Assembly: GCA_020851635.1 (NCBI GenBank)
Contig: JADZCJ010000048.1
Location: forward strand, 1 to 64,000
Source of the DNA: Anaerolineae bacterium
Lineage (GTDB): Bacteria > Chloroflexota > Anaerolineae > UBA4142 > SHND01
Direction of reading: 5' to 3'
Length of the DNA: 64,000 nucleotides
The notes beneath the pieces are model-generated. The model searched no databases and was not told where the DNA came from. It saw only the letters and a program-made list of their open reading frames with translations. Position 1 is the stretch's first letter; each line of letters starts with the position of its first letter. This document shows positions 11,001-26,591 of the stretch, one piece after another. The position numbers and the translations under genes are program-made.

Positions 11001-11050
11001 GTTATCACAAAAAACACCAGCGACAATCGGCTGGTGTTTTTTGTGATAAC
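11001..11050. terminator. Bidirectional terminator between convergent SRPBCC genes
   Basis: A perfect 21-bp stem (11001-11021 with 11030-11050) with an 8-nt loop contains A/T tracts in its arms, so it can end transcripts from both sides. Confidence 0.9.
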
Positions 11051-11670: not shown

Positions 11671-11700
11671 TTGACAACCCTTCCCCGCGCGTGCTACAGT
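11671..11700 (+). promoter_or_regulatory. Sigma-70 promoter of the CHAT gene, predicted leaderless
   Basis: TTGACA (11671-11676) and TACAGT (11695-11700) are 18 bp apart. Transcription should begin close to 11707, which is the ATG of the CHAT gene, and no Shine-Dalgarno sequence lies between. A leaderless mRNA is the simplest reading. Confidence 0.7.
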
Positions 11701-11706
11701 CAGTGC

Positions 11707-13317
11707 ATGTCCAAACGCGCCTATCTCACTCTCGATCTGCTCATCGAGCGCGCCGGAGACAGCTACCGCGCCCTCATCGTTGACTCGCCCGTCGGGCAGG
11801 CGAACGCCGCGTTTGCGTCTCCTTTCCAGCCCCCGGAACTGGACTCGTTTATGGCGCGCATCGGTCGCCGCGCCCCCATTTCGGGCGCCAACGCCACGCC
11901 CGAGGAAATGCTCAAACAGTTCGGCAAAACCCTGTTCAATGCGGTCTTTCACGATGAGGTCTTGACCAGCTTTCGCCGCAGCCGTGACGCCGCCGACAAT
12001 GCGGACAAGGGCTTGCGGATCAAACTCCGTCTTGACGAGGTTCCCGAACTCGCCGACTTGCCGTGGGAGTATCTTTACGATGCCACGCGCGAAAATTTTC
12101 TCGCGCTGTCAAGGGAAACGCCCATCGTCCGTTTCCTCGCTCTGCCCGAACCTGTCGAACCGCTCGCCGCACCCTCGCCCCTGAATTTGCTCGCCGTTCT
12201 CGCAAGTCCCACGGATTACGAGACCCTCGACGTGCAAGGCGAATGGCGTCGTCTACAGGATGCCACCCTCGAACTGCGCGCCGACAACAAACTGACTCTC
12301 ACGCGCGTCGAGCCGCCCACCTTTGATGCCCTCCAGCGTCAGCTCCGCAAGGGCGACTATCACCTCTTGCATTTTATCGGTCATGGCGAATACGACGCCG
12401 CGACCCAACACGGCGCATTGGTGTTCGAGGACGCTCAAAAGCAGGGGCGCGCGGTGCGCGACGAACTCGTCGCCACGCTCCTGCATGATGCCGATTCGAT
12501 GCGCGTGGTCCTGCTCAACGCCTGCGAGGGGGCGCGCACTTCGGCAAAAAATCCGTTCACGGGTGTTGCGCCGCGTCTCGTGCAAAAAGGCATCCCCGCC
12601 GTCATCGCCATGCAGTTCCCCATCAGCGACCCTGCGGCGATTCTATTCTCGTCCGAAGTTTATCGCACTCTGGCGGACGGGTTTCCGATGGATGCGGCAG
12701 TCAACGAGGCGCGCCGCGCCATCTATTTTGGCGGCAGTGTGTTGGAATGGGGCACGCCGGTCCTTTTCATGCGCGCTGCGGACGGCACAATTTTTGCCGG
12801 GGAGGATGAAATGGCAGACGAGAAAAAATCTGGCAAATCGGGCGGCGGTATCAACATCGGGGGCAACGCGCGCGTCAGCGTTGGACGTGATATGATCGGC
12901 GGCGACAAAAACGTGCAAGGAGACGACATTTTCGCCGAGGGCGATATCAACACCGTCACCATCGGCGCGGGCGCGACCGTCGGTCAGGTCGCCGCGGGAC
13001 GCAACAACACCCAGATCAATCAGGGCGCAGACCTCAAGGACCTCGCCGCGTTGTTTCAGACCGTCTACAAACAGGTGGATGCGCGCCCCGACGACCCCGA
13101 CATTGACAAGGACGAGATCAAGGCCAAGGTCAAACAAGTCGAGTCCGAAGCCAACAAGGGCGAACAAGCCAACGCCAAAAAAATCGAACGCTGGCTCACC
13201 GACCTCAAAAACATCGCCCCCGACATTCTCGAAATCACCGCCGCCGCGCTTCTCAATCCCATCGCCGGAGTAGCCCTCGCCGTCGCCAAAATCGCCGAAC
13301 GCTTCCGCACCACGTAG
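11707..13317 (+). CDS. CHAT-domain protease-like protein with glycine-rich beta module
   Basis: This 536-residue protein has three parts. Residues 1-150 are an N-terminal alpha/beta region. Residues about 155-360 are a CHAT (caspase-like) domain with the catalytic dyad His226 in HFIGHGEY and Cys273 in LLNACEGAR. After a linker (DEKKSGKSGGG) comes a glycine/asparagine-rich beta repeat (about 378-441: NIGGNARVSVGRDMIGGDKN, TVTIGAGATVGQVAAGRN) and a helical tail ending in a hydrophobic segment (NPIAGVALAVAKIAE). CHAT proteins are cysteine proteases that often act in bacterial conflict or cell-death systems. There is no signal peptide, so it is cytoplasmic. The start fits the leaderless promoter. 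It is first of three co-directional genes. Confidence 0.85.
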   Translation: MSKRAYLTLDLLIERAGDSYRALIVDSPVGQANAAFASPFQPPELDSFMARIGRRAPISGANATPEEMLKQFGKTLFNAVFHDEVLTSFRRSRDAADNADKGLRIKLRLDEVPELADLPWEYLYDATRENFLALSRETPIVRFLALPEPVEPLAAPSPLNLLAVLASPTDYETLDVQGEWRRLQDATLELRADNKLTLTRVEPPTFDALQRQLRKGDYHLLHFIGHGEYDAATQHGALVFEDAQKQGRAVRDELVATLLHDADSMRVVLLNACEGARTSAKNPFTGVAPRLVQKGIPAVIAMQFPISDPAAILFSSEVYRTLADGFPMDAAVNEARRAIYFGGSVLEWGTPVLFMRAADGTIFAGEDEMADEKKSGKSGGGINIGGNARVSVGRDMIGGDKNVQGDDIFAEGDINTVTIGAGATVGQVAAGRNNTQINQGADLKDLAALFQTVYKQVDARPDDPDIDKDEIKAKVKQVESEANKGEQANAKKIERWLTDLKNIAPDILEITAAALLNPIAGVALAVAKIAERFRTT

Positions 13318-13336
13318 GGGCGGGGTTTCCCCGCCC
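13314..13336. repeat. GTAGGGGCGGGG palindromic repeat, copy 1
   Basis: This 23-bp hairpin repeat (8-bp stem GGGCGGGG/CCCCGCCC) overlaps the CHAT stop codon: the repeat's own TAG is the stop. A second copy differing by one base in the loop lies at 25556-25578. Confidence 0.8.
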
Positions 13337-13354
13337 ATTTCCGCGCGAATTTCT

Positions 13355-13417
13355 GTTACGCTTTACGTAACGACGAATTTGGTTCTCATTGGCAAAGATT
13401 CGCGTTGATTCGCGGGG
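13355..13417. repeat. GTTACG hairpin repeat and two ATTCGCG decamers
   Basis: GTTACG-CTTTA-CGTAAC (13355-13371) followed by GACGAA matches 50061-50077, where the loop is CTTTG. Two decamers, ATTCGCGTTG and ATTCGCGGGG, follow at 13398-13417. All lie in the gap between the CHAT gene and the next gene. Confidence 0.75.
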
Positions 13418-13466
13418 AGAAAACTCTTTCGCTAACTCGAATTGCATCGGTTAACTTGCTTTACTA

Positions 13467-15158
13467 ATGTCTTCCCCCACCCCCCCCGACCCCAACACAC
13501 CGCCCCCGAACGATGCAGCACAACCAAAACCCTCTCCGCGCGATGACCGCGCACCGACCGTCGTTGGCGACGTGAATCGCGTCAACGTCGGAGCGGGCGC
13601 GCAGGTTGACCAGCTCGCCGTCGGTCGCAACATCCTTCAGGCAAAAATCAACATCGGCTCGTTCGTCGTGCCCGTCCGCTTTTTGCTCGTTCTCCTCGCG
13701 GTGGCGTTGGTCCTCGCCGTGGCGGTCTGGTGGATCATCACACCCTCCCAAATGGCAGAAGGCGCATCCGCATCGAACGTCGCCATTGTCCAGTTTGGCG
13801 AGCAGGATGCCAACGGCAATGTGACCAACTCGGCGCAGGGGACGTATCTTGCCGACTGGCTCTATAACCGTCTCAATTCGGAACTCGCGGACCTCGATCC
13901 TGCCGACCGTCCCACCATCTGGCATCTGGCGACCGGGTTTGATCCCATCCATCTTTTTCAAAAACGCACGACCGCGCCCATCTTGAACCAGGCGGACGCC
14001 GAACGCGTGGCAAAACAGGTGGACGCGCGCATCGTCATTTACGGCAACCTGGTGCCCGGACAGAGCACGGTGAGTTTTGTCCCGCAGTTTTACATCGAAC
14101 AGCGCGCGGGCGAAGCGGACGAATTGAGCGGCAGCCAGCAGCTCGGTCAGCCTATCCCCATGCCCGACCCGGTCAATGACGAATATTTGCGAGCGACCTT
14201 GCAGCCAATTGGACGCGCCCTCGTCTGGTTTTCGCGCGGTCTGCAAAACGATTTGAACGGACGCTATGATCTGGCGTACAAGGTGTTGAAAGAAGGAGAA
14301 GCAAATCTGGGGGATTGGGACGAGAATCAGGGCAAAGAGGTCTTGTATTATTTTATCGGGCGCGAAGCGCTGTTTCTTGCCAACTGCGAGAGTGACGCCG
14401 CGCTGATTTTCAAACCGGGCGCGGGCGAGACCGCCGTCCAACTGGCACTGAACGACGCCGAACAAAATTTCAAGCGCGCGCAGGACATTGCCTTACGCAA
14501 TGGGCGCACCTACGCCCGCGCGGACTTTGGGTTGGGACAGGTCGCCTTGCAGCGCGCCCAGCGCCTGTTAATTCCCGCCGGTTCCGCGAACGCGGGGCAG
14601 TGCCGCATCAACACCCCGGCCGCAAATCTGCCCTGTCCGCAAGCTCCCGCGCCGCCGACCGACCCCGCCATCCTGCAAAACGCGCGTACCGAGCTCGACC
14701 GCGCCATCGTCTTTTTAGACCGGGCGCGCGCCGAATTGCCCAACCCCGCCCCCTCCCGCCTTGACGGCAGAATCAGCGGAGCTCGCGCCAATGCCGACGC
14801 TCTGGTGGGACAATTATTGCTGCTCGGGCAAAACCCGACGGATGCCGAACCCTATTTCCAAAACGCCGCGCGCGCTTTGCTTGGACTGACCCAAACCACA
14901 CCGGCAGAGGACAGCCGTACCCTGGCAGTGGCGTGGCTGAGTCTCGGCGCCGCACAGCGCGCCAACGGCGTCGCACATTTGATGCAGGGGGATTCCGCGT
15001 CGGCGCGGGCGGAACTGCAAAATGCGGTGGACAGTTTTGCCGCCTGCGTCAAAATGATTCCGGCAGACGAGCCGGACGTCTTTTTGCGCTCGAATGTTTT
15101 GCCAAACTGCGTCTGCGCGCAGCAGAGCACGCAAAATATGCTGGACACCGTGAAATGA
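13467..15158 (+). CDS. Membrane-anchored protein with shared beta motif, FlgO/TolB-like and helical-repeat regions
   Basis: This 563-residue protein starts with a Pro-rich cytoplasmic segment. Residues 31-65 hold the motif VNRVNVGAGAQVDQLAVGRN, nearly the same as in the CHAT protein upstream. One membrane helix (about 70-92) follows. Outside the membrane is an alpha/beta domain (NVAIVQFGEQD, LADWLYNRL, RIVIYGNLVPG) resembling FlgO/TolB N-terminal folds, then a long TPR-like helical part (about 245-560). No Shine-Dalgarno precedes ATG 13467. The domain calls outside the motif and membrane helix rest on pattern only. It probably presents the beta motif to the cytoplasm as an anchor or sensor for the CHAT protein. 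Confidence 0.75.
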   Translation: MSSPTPPDPNTPPPNDAAQPKPSPRDDRAPTVVGDVNRVNVGAGAQVDQLAVGRNILQAKINIGSFVVPVRFLLVLLAVALVLAVAVWWIITPSQMAEGASASNVAIVQFGEQDANGNVTNSAQGTYLADWLYNRLNSELADLDPADRPTIWHLATGFDPIHLFQKRTTAPILNQADAERVAKQVDARIVIYGNLVPGQSTVSFVPQFYIEQRAGEADELSGSQQLGQPIPMPDPVNDEYLRATLQPIGRALVWFSRGLQNDLNGRYDLAYKVLKEGEANLGDWDENQGKEVLYYFIGREALFLANCESDAALIFKPGAGETAVQLALNDAEQNFKRAQDIALRNGRTYARADFGLGQVALQRAQRLLIPAGSANAGQCRINTPAANLPCPQAPAPPTDPAILQNARTELDRAIVFLDRARAELPNPAPSRLDGRISGARANADALVGQLLLLGQNPTDAEPYFQNAARALLGLTQTTPAEDSRTLAVAWLSLGAAQRANGVAHLMQGDSASARAELQNAVDSFAACVKMIPADEPDVFLRSNVLPNCVCAQQSTQNMLDTVK

Positions 15159-15166
15159 GGTGACTC

Positions 15167-16477
15167 GTGAGACTCTTGTATTCACTTGGCATTCTTGCCC
15201 TCGTTGCTGTATGTGCCGCTTGTACGACGACCCAAGGCGGCGTGACGCCTTCAAGACCTGCCGTCCAGATTCTTGTCCCTGCCTTTGGCGCGACGTTCCT
15301 CGAGGGACAACCCGTCGGGATTCAGTCTGTCTCGACCGATCCCACCGGCATCACGCGCGTCGAACTGAGTATTGACGGGCAGCCGGTCAAGACCGATCAG
15401 GCAGTTACGCAAGGACAGACTCAATTCAATGTGGTGCAGGTATGGACGGCACAAGGCGTCGGCGCGCACGCCGTGCTTGTGCGGGCGTTCAACACCGCCA
15501 ACGTTTCAGCCGAAGCATCCATCCCCATTGCGGTGAGCGCGGCCATCGCCGATCTGCCAACAGCAACTCAAGCGCCGATTGTCATAGTGGTTACCGCGAC
15601 GCCGCCCCAGCCGACTGACGCGCCAATCGTCTTTGTCCCGCCTTTTCCCGCAACACAAACAGCTCTACCGCCCACGCTTCCGCCGCCCACCCCCATACCA
15701 CCCACGCCCATCCCACCCACGCTCCCGCCGCTTGTCTTTCTTCCCCCATTTGATGGCGGAATGAATGTGGTGGTTGATTGGGACGGCGAACAAATGCAGC
15801 TCGAAGCGACCGCCAACGACACCCTCGTCGGCGGTGACGATGGCGACGGTATCGCCTATATCGAGTTTTTTATTCAGGATTTGCAGGGCAATGTGATTGC
15901 GACCAAACGCGAAAACAACAAACCCTACTGTTTCTTTGGTGAATCCGATGGTCAGTGCACGTTCGGGCGACAGGGTGAACCAAATTTCCGGTGGAGTCCC
16001 GACAAACCGATTCAGAGCGGTTGGTATTTTATTCGCGCTGTGGCGCACACCCGCGACAATCGCATCCAGGTTGCCGAACGTCCGCTCTATGTAAATTTGG
16101 GCGACGCCCCCCCCGAATCGCTTTTTGTCAATCTCACCGAGCCGAGCAATTTCAATTTGGAAAAGGAACTGACGATCCGCGCCGAGACCGATGGTCCCAG
16201 CTCCAATTCCGGGATTGACCATGTTGATTTCTTTGTCGTCACCTATGACAGCAAAATCGTCCACAAGCGCACCGAACAGTCTGCCGACTATTGCGGTTTT
16301 GGCGGCGGCGAAAACAATCAACCCTGCAACACCTACAATTTCAAACAAAACGGTCTCAAATGGCTCAACGGCGACCCCGTGTTTCCGACCCAGTATATCG
16401 TGCGCGCGATTGCCTATGCCCGCGACGGCGCCATCGCCGCCAACACGGTCTTTTTCCAGATTGACCGTGTTCAATAG
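15167..16477 (+). CDS. Surface lipoprotein with Ig-like domain and Pro/Thr-rich linker
   Basis: This 436-residue protein starts at GTG 15167, with GAGGTGA just upstream. It has a lipoprotein-type signal, LGILALVAVCAAC, with Cys19 the probable lipidated residue. An Ig-like domain (about 30-125: IQILVPAFGATFLEGQPVG-like opening) is followed by a Pro/Thr-rich linker (150-190, PPTPIPPTPIPPT) and a beta-rich C-terminal part with two similar segments containing CFFGESDGQC and CGFGGGENNQPC. It lies 8 bp after the membrane protein gene, so it is probably the extracellular member of the three-gene set. Confidence 0.82.
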   Translation: MRLLYSLGILALVAVCAACTTTQGGVTPSRPAVQILVPAFGATFLEGQPVGIQSVSTDPTGITRVELSIDGQPVKTDQAVTQGQTQFNVVQVWTAQGVGAHAVLVRAFNTANVSAEASIPIAVSAAIADLPTATQAPIVIVVTATPPQPTDAPIVFVPPFPATQTALPPTLPPPTPIPPTPIPPTLPPLVFLPPFDGGMNVVVDWDGEQMQLEATANDTLVGGDDGDGIAYIEFFIQDLQGNVIATKRENNKPYCFFGESDGQCTFGRQGEPNFRWSPDKPIQSGWYFIRAVAHTRDNRIQVAERPLYVNLGDAPPESLFVNLTEPSNFNLEKELTIRAETDGPSSNSGIDHVDFFVVTYDSKIVHKRTEQSADYCGFGGGENNQPCNTYNFKQNGLKWLNGDPVFPTQYIVRAIAYARDGAIAANTVFFQIDRVQ

Positions 16478-16485
16478 ATCACCAA

Positions 16486-16522
16486 AAAAACCGCCGACCT
16501 GCATTTCAGGTCGGCGGTTTTT
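16486..16522. terminator. Bidirectional terminator after the CHAT operon
   Basis: A perfect 16-bp stem (16486-16501 with 16507-16522) has A and T tracts at its base. It ends the plus-strand operon and overlaps the stop of the convergent FAH gene, with which it is shared. Confidence 0.9.
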
Positions 16523-25548: not shown

Positions 25549-26591
25549 TTCGCTCGTAGGGGCGGGGTTGCCCCGCCCTGTATCTCCCCGCCCTGTATCT
25601 CCCCGCCCTGTATCTCCCCGCCCTGTATCTCCCCACTCTCATCCCGGGTCGGTATCTGCTTTGCCTCGCGCGGCTTCCATGCCACCGCCAGCGCGACGCC
25701 CAGGAATTCCCCCGCAATGCTCCATATCCGCGCGAGAAATGCAATCGCCACCGCAACGGGCGGCGGAAAATATGCCGACAAAAAGTAGGCGAGGGTCGCC
25801 TCGCGGAACCCCAATCCGCTTGGCGTAATAAACGACGCATACCCCACAAAATACGCCGCCGCATTCATCCCGATAAACGCGGGCAGCACCTCGATCGAAA
25901 TATCCGTCATCGAGCGCACAAACAACCAGAACGCCAGCCCGTTAAGCGTCCACATGATCACCGAACAGACCGGCGGCACGAGGTTGTGCCGGAACGTCGT
26001 CGTCACCCGCGGCGCAGTGATTTCCGAATTGCGTCGCACCTTGCGCACAAGCCATGTCGTCACGTTCAACATCAACCGGAACACGGCGGGCATCGCAAAC
26101 AACAAAATCATTGCCGCAAACGCCACCGCCACCCACGGGATCGCTTCGGGCGGCAGCGGCAGCAGCGTCAACCCATACAGCGCGGCGACCGACAACGCAA
26201 TCCCCGCATACACCGCCTGGCTCAGCACCACGTTCACTTTGGAGACCCCCGCGCCATCCGTCAGCATCATCATCGCCGCCAGTTGAAACACATTTCCCGG
26301 AATAAAGCGCGCGAGATTAGAGATGAACCAGGCATAGATCGCAAAGCGAAACGAAATTGAATTTCCCAGCGCGCGCAAAATCCGCCGCCATGCCTCGACC
26401 GCAAAACTGCGGCTCGGCACCAGCAAAAGCGTTGACAAGACCAGCAGCGGCAGATTGAAATCGAACGTATACCCGCTTTGACCCACCTGTGCCCAGGTGC
26501 TCCACAGTGTGCGTCCCAGAAAGATCAGGATCGCAACCGCGAGCGCCCAACCAACCGCGCGCCGCCACGTCATATTCTTCAACATTGTCAT
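25545..26591 (-). CDS. Flippase-like LPG synthase TM domain protein (UPF0104 type)
   Basis: This 348-residue integral membrane protein has about eight helices and the family's ARFIPGNVFQLAAMMMLTDG and ITPSGLGFREA segments, as in the lysylphosphatidylglycerol-synthase membrane domain. Stand-alone members are thought to move lipid-linked molecules across the membrane. The last 30 residues are a SGEIQGGEIQGGEIQ repeat made by 15-bp units attached to a palindromic repeat; this tail is probably dispensable and recently acquired. Genes on both sides are glycan membrane proteins. Confidence 0.82.
   Translation of the reverse strand: MTMLKNMTWRRAVGWALAVAILIFLGRTLWSTWAQVGQSGYTFDFNLPLLVLSTLLLVPSRSFAVEAWRRILRALGNSISFRFAIYAWFISNLARFIPGNVFQLAAMMMLTDGAGVSKVNVVLSQAVYAGIALSVAALYGLTLLPLPPEAIPWVAVAFAAMILLFAMPAVFRLMLNVTTWLVRKVRRNSEITAPRVTTTFRHNLVPPVCSVIMWTLNGLAFWLFVRSMTDISIEVLPAFIGMNAAAYFVGYASFITPSGLGFREATLAYFLSAYFPPPVAVAIAFLARIWSIAGEFLGVALAVAWKPREAKQIPTRDESGEIQGGEIQGGEIQGGEIQGGATPPLRAK
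25556..25635. repeat. GTAGGGGCGGGG palindrome copy 2 with four 15-bp units
   Basis: The palindrome (25556-25578) matches 13314-13336 except for one loop base. Four units of CCCTGTATCTCCCCG (25576-25635) follow directly. The whole block lies in the 3' end of the flippase-like gene and encodes its GGEIQ repeats. Confidence 0.88.

Follow-up and report, generated by a model that had tools for sequence, protein, structure and literature searches.

Organization of the locus

Three genes follow each other on the plus strand of the window (the whole stretch of Anaerolineae DNA that was analysed, 64,000 nucleotides in length). Their presence had been proposed from the sequence alone, and analysis confirmed that all three are open and intact and that their order is kept in relatives. 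The first gene (11707..13317) codes for a CHAT protease of 536 aa, as judged from Pfam, the AlphaFold2 model and Foldseek. It is followed by P2 (13467..15158), coding for a putative single-pass membrane receptor of 563 aa, and by P3 (15167..16477), coding for a secreted protein or lipoprotein of 436 aa.

A sigma-70-like promoter with an extended -10 element (TTGACA-18-TACAGT), predicted by consensus match only (10/12 positions), is located at 11671..11700 on the plus strand and stops 7 bp 5' of the CHAT ATG (11707). Since the expected transcription start falls at about this ATG, the CHAT mRNA is possibly leaderless. The gap between CHAT and P2 measures 149 bp, compared with 6-40 bp in relatives, and contains the palindrome GTAGGGGCGGGGTTTCCCCGCCC (13314..13336, plus strand), a second copy of which is found at 25556-25578. 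Because a gap of this length with a palindrome separates the two genes, their co-transcription is uncertain. The original prediction placed the operon between terminators. This is true downstream, where an intrinsic terminator with a 16-pair stem and a T tail is present on the plus strand (16486..16522), but not upstream, where the terminator at 11002-11049 is cut off from CHAT by a gene on the opposite strand.

Comparison with genome G005 revealed that the locus occupies a conserved chromosomal site amid ordinary genes. No recognisable defence island and no defence neighbours were seen around it, and no toxin-type substrate gene for the protease is encoded at the locus. MoxR ATPase and vWA genes are absent from the three-gene operon according to Pfam, which sets it apart from vWA-MoxR-VMAP systems.

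CHAT protease

The first protein belongs to two Pfam families, CHAT (PF12770; 97.8 bits against a cut-off of 24, E 1e-27) and TCAD2 (PF19971; 80.3 bits against a cut-off of 27, E 1.2e-22). The TCAD2 domain is C-terminal (residues 449-534; 13051..13308, plus strand); neither this domain nor the motif common to CHAT and P2, described below, had been noticed in the original prediction. The catalytic dyad is intact as anticipated. His226 (codon 12382..12384, plus strand) lies within HFIGHG and Cys273 (codon 12523..12525, plus strand), the sole cysteine of the protein, within LLNACEG, both in alignment with CHAT relatives. Retention of the dyad among homologues had been suggested as a check of the proposed system, and both residues are indeed kept in relatives.

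The AlphaFold2 model (pLDDT 78) has SAVED-CHAT, Craspase TPR-CHAT and separase as its best Foldseek matches. Residues 371-440, a linker that includes the motif, have pLDDT of 25-34 and are predicted to be disordered in the monomer. The best named relative is HetF from NCBIfam (1.3e-23), although the match is far under the cut-off. A PADLOC match to SAVED-CHAT and type III CRISPR effectors covers the CHAT part only; Pfam finds no SAVED domain in the window proteins, which sets the protease apart from such effectors.

Putative membrane receptor and lipoprotein

P2 had been described as a protein with one membrane helix and with TPR-like and FlgO/TolB-like parts outside. Helix and TPR-like part were both recovered. 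In the AlphaFold2 model (mean pLDDT 82), a disordered tail is followed by a transmembrane helix (residues 70-91; 13674..13739), which is also apparent from hydropathy, then by an alpha/beta domain (residues 104-232; 13776..14162) and by a TPR-type superhelix (residues 238-562; 14178..15152), all encoded on the plus strand. We infer that the tail resides in the cytosol and that the alpha/beta and TPR parts are exposed outside. TPR folds match the model at Z 17-19, and fold searches with the whole model are dominated by TPR proteins, DdvA being a weak match. Two cysteines, Cys527 and Cys548, are invariant across 23 relatives. Residues 238-562 also match the peptide receptors Rap and NprR at Z of about 17, the same level as other TPR proteins; the models allow for a peptide ligand but do not point to one.

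In contrast, the FlgO/TolB-like assignment could not be confirmed. P2 has no FlgO (PF17680) match, and its relatives give only insignificant matches to LpoB and DUF3280. Comparison of the outer alpha/beta domain, which has no Pfam family, with the FlgO/TolB/LpoB-like fold yielded weak LpoB matches (E 0.11), and a PDB sequence search with this domain gave nothing. According to Pfam, there is no NTPase domain in P2 and no EAD domain in any of the window proteins.

P3 agrees with the proposed lipoprotein with an Ig-like domain: it has a signal peptide, a relaxed lipobox and a Big_7 domain at residues 31-79 (Pfam, 5e-9). Genes located 3' of P2 are of signal-peptide type in all 25 scorable loci, where "secreted/lipoprotein-like" is a call made by a lenient hydropathy rule, and similarity to P3 itself is found in 15. 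At a different locus, a bacterial SH3 domain is present in the lipoprotein that accompanies an EAD1 receptor (L096:5040-5984), a hint that partners of such receptors may bind the cell wall.

A motif shared by protease and receptor

A motif roughly 28 residues long, GDxNxVxIGAGAxVxQxAxGRN, is present both in the linker of CHAT and in the cytosolic tail of P2. The CHAT copy, GDINTVTIGAGATVGQVAAGRNNTQ, sits between the CHAT domain and TCAD2 (12940..13026, plus strand, GDINTVTIGAGATVGQVAAGRNNTQINQG; motif profile E 3.8e-11), and the P2 copy, GDVNRVNVGAGAQVDQLAVGRNILQ, lies in the tail (13566..13649, plus strand, GDVNRVNVGAGAQVDQLAVGRNILQAKINIG; E 7.1e-14). Similarity of the two copies reaches a score of 79, whereas shuffled sequences average 24 (sd 4). 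Glycine is abundant in the motif, and AlphaFold2 predicts disorder for it in both CHAT and P2 monomers. A genome-wide scan (5.8 Mb) with the motif profile detects only CHAT, P2, a paralogue of P2 (contig C89, 7e-14) and, weakly, one nSTAND1 protein. Conserved gene order together with these genome-wide motif counts excludes chance as the source of the pattern, and coupling of CHAT and P2 through the motif is, as far as sequence comparison can tell, well supported.

The paralogue on contig C89 (L066:6924-8711) is part of a second P2-P3 pair, which has the motif and no adjoining protease gene; this pair may share the window CHAT in trans. The nSTAND1 NTPase (L126, contig C140 of the same genome) has a weak motif copy at its N-terminus and could feed the window CHAT from the cell interior.

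Large motif proteins scanned in the genus, namely this nSTAND1 and nine proteins from sister genomes, are without exception STAND NTPases (10/10; nSTAND1, NACHT, NB-ARC) and carry the motif close to their N-terminus. Other carriers comprise a caspase in which the motif precedes TCAD2, a TIR-like protein and a NACHT protein. The caspase-motif-TCAD2 protein is encoded by L098:7032-8369. At L099:4663-7517, a motif-TCAD2 protein adjoins another motif carrier, which matches TIR weakly.

Conservation, fusions and exchange of cytosolic modules

Joint conservation of the three genes, proposed earlier as a check of their functional relation, was observed: among five further genomes of the genus, four have the order CHAT-P2-P3, and one begins instead with a gene for a 195-aa motif adaptor without a CHAT domain, followed by P2-P3. 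Relatives of P2 are present in 35 of 298 Anaerolineae genomes sampled and are patchily distributed across the class, with few matches beyond it in a phylum-wide sample. A scan of genome contigs with a closer receptor profile retrieved 7 loci, all from Anaerolineae or other Chloroflexota MAGs.

In four loci (L090, L091, L092 and L093), which fall into three families, CHAT, transmembrane helix and ectodomain are fused in a single reading frame, and the junctions contain no sequence gaps. Natural fusions of this kind argue strongly for a joint function of the separate window proteins, and for a location of CHAT and outer domain on opposite sides of the membrane. An apparent CHAT-P2 fusion in G003 (L068) was rejected because its join consists of N positions in the assembly.

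Homologous outer domains are combined with various cytosolic modules: the motif in the window and elsewhere, EAD7 in L079 and L080, EAD1 in L084 and L096, TIR in L088, and CHAT itself in L090-L093. In a tree of outer domains the module types are intermixed, deep forks of this tree being weak. The L088 protein (L088:6334-8430) is a P2-type receptor with an N-terminal TIR and a GDKI/GDKV repeat ahead of the membrane. Further, adaptor-like proteins with the motif at one end adjoin P2 at L076:2332-3255 and L087:5212-5919. The former carries EAD7 at the opposite end (Pfam, 4.6e-21), and the latter is its near copy by sequence; such a layout would be expected of a bridging adaptor that links the motif to EAD7.

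Motif pairing and receptor replacement

Across 12 loci, similarity within cognate motif pairs adds up to 962, and permuted pairs reach 612 (sd 60; p about 1e-5); this test is confounded by shared ancestry. Clear locus-specific matching is seen in only some of the loci: in L086 (NIGTI...NIAAG on both sides) and L094 (GRDKI...GGDKV on both sides), and at L071 the receptor tail has the other half of the protease repeat (GGVNISGG...GDKI). Some receptors, window P2 included, score better with the partner of another locus than with their own.

Phylogenetic trees of the two proteins differ in topology. The CHAT tree groups the window with G005 (96/99), the P2 tree groups it with G002 and G003 (97/97), and CHAT data reject the latter grouping (p-AU 0.002). 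This conflict indicates an exchange of receptors between proteases. G005 carries the locus at the same chromosomal site; there, identity amounts to 67-85% for the flanking genes and 67% for CHAT, compared with 33% for P2 and 39% for P3, the last value extending over 159 aa only. Since the protease is conserved, P2 and P3 are divergent and the trees conflict, receptors have been replaced beneath a conserved protease.

Relation to known systems

Bacterial amyloid signalling pairs consist of an NLR and a neighbouring effector with a motif in common, CHAT being one such effector (PMC7889193). The locus resembles these NLR-BASS pairs (PMC7889193, PMC8086366), whose effectors include CHAT and TIR: the same short motif is found in neighbouring genes for effector and receptor, N-terminal on the receptor and located after the effector domain, and the present motif also occurs at N-termini of STAND NTPases. 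Unlike in these pairs, the window receptor is a single-pass membrane protein without an NTPase, hence not an NLR or STAND protein, and the effector motif precedes TCAD2 instead of ending the protein.

Resemblance to EAD-coupled conflict systems (eLife 52696, PMC7159879; PMC8195603) consists in EAD1 or EAD7 carried by homologous P2 receptors; window P2 itself differs from them in having a short beta-type motif in place of an EAD. In the available text of PMC7159879 and PMC8195603, small adaptors are predicted to join effectors to receptors via homotypic contact; the same text contains no FlgO or TCAD term, and P2-type architecture was not encountered in it.

DdvA (PDB 8rot, 8rw5) is likewise a membrane protein, and its structure matches the model of CHAT at E 6.8e-9, with a weak match to that of P2 as well; in contrast to the window proteins, it is a transmembrane anti-sigma factor. 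Craspase TPR-CHAT (Csx29) and SAVED-CHAT share the CHAT fold and dyad with the window protease, but SAVED and CRISPR components are absent here. The triggers of both systems are intracellular, namely RNA or cyclic oligoadenylate.

Already known are CHAT proteases, EAD coupling and motif pairs of NLRs and effectors. The exact CHAT/receptor/lipoprotein architecture was not found in the literature searched, coverage of which is incomplete. Within the same limits, no description was found of a family of single-pass receptors whose coupling modules are swappable or of an NLR-type motif on a receptor without an NTPase.

Proposed mechanism and alternative explanations

We favour, with somewhat better than even confidence, the interpretation that the three genes constitute an outside-in proteolytic signalling unit in which P2 replaces the NLR and CHAT is activated by homotypic motif pairing. 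Comparative data that support it are the parts themselves, their kept order, a common motif near-exclusive in the genome, the fusions and the exchange of cytosolic modules. The originally predicted coupling of an outside domain through the membrane to a cytoplasmic CHAT is retained on the basis of gene linkage, dyad, four fusions and common motif, its FlgO/TolB element not being confirmed.

The unit might operate as follows. The outer alpha/beta and TPR parts of P2 would detect an event at the cell surface, with P3 probably acting as co-sensor or ligand presenter. The cytosolic tail would present the short motif, disordered in the monomer, and clustering of receptors would gather these motifs, which could then template or nucleate the matching motif of CHAT, presumably through self-assembly. 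CHAT domains brought together in this way would switch on His226/Cys273 proteolysis of a target encoded outside the operon. P2 would thus fill the role that NLR/STAND NTPases have in motif-coupled and EAD-coupled bacterial effector systems. Cell death or defence would be the likeliest outcome, because the other carriers of the motif are STAND, caspase and TIR-type proteins.

Absence of a defence island and of an encoded substrate, together with the stable site, whose neighbours are 67-85% identical between species, leaves room for a HetF-like regulatory role. In such a case the unit would sense the state of the envelope or of growth, and CHAT would trim a regulator with no relation to death or immunity. 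HetF acts in cyanobacterial division and heterocyst patterning, and its CHAT domain is related by sequence to that of the window, of which it is the best named relative. However, the window protein is far under the HetF equivalog cut-off, and HetF lacks the receptor, motif, TCAD2 and partners found here. Given also the company in which the motif otherwise occurs (STAND NTPases, caspases, a TIR-like protein) and the replacement and exchange of receptors, a pattern that fits conflict or recognition better than housekeeping, we regard a developmental or stress-related function as unlikely, though not negligible.

The same replacement could be read as a sign of kin or neighbour recognition, in which fast-changing outer domains and the lipoprotein would tell self from non-self and the protease would punish mismatch in filaments or aggregates. 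Both the conflict of receptor and protease trees and the low identity of P2 (33%) and P3 (39% over 159 aa) to their G005 counterparts at the same site, beside 67% for CHAT, fit this idea; the same divergence could equally stem from a phage arms race, and we consider the idea rather improbable. Mere adjacency of the genes, with the motif being no more than a common low-complexity linker that lacks a function, is very improbable: the motif is glycine-rich, predicted to be disordered and given no structure by AlphaFold, but it is near-exclusive in the genome, gene order is conserved, natural fusions exist, and homologous receptors have known coupling domains (EAD7, TIR) in its place.

Implications

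To our knowledge, those bacterial CHAT or caspase-like systems whose triggers have been worked out (Craspase, SAVED-CHAT) answer intracellular signals. The outside-in signalling unit proposed here may instead be a bacterial counterpart of animal death receptors, that is, one sensor design of single-pass receptors that activate caspase-like proteases from outside the cell; we put this forward tentatively, with slightly less than even confidence. It is a comparably tentative suggestion, which we would accept almost as readily as reject, that the exchangeable modules of such a death-receptor-like family comprise a short NLR-type motif, EAD1, EAD7, TIR and CHAT, and include adaptors bridging the motif to EAD7.

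If true, bacteria would possess an extrinsic pathway whose sensor, adaptor and caspase-like protease are arranged as in animal death receptors. Interpretation of the motif as a coupling element predicts which receptors pair with which effectors and is directly testable. The locus also points to an outer sensor domain without a Pfam family, belonging to receptors that are scattered over Anaerolineae.
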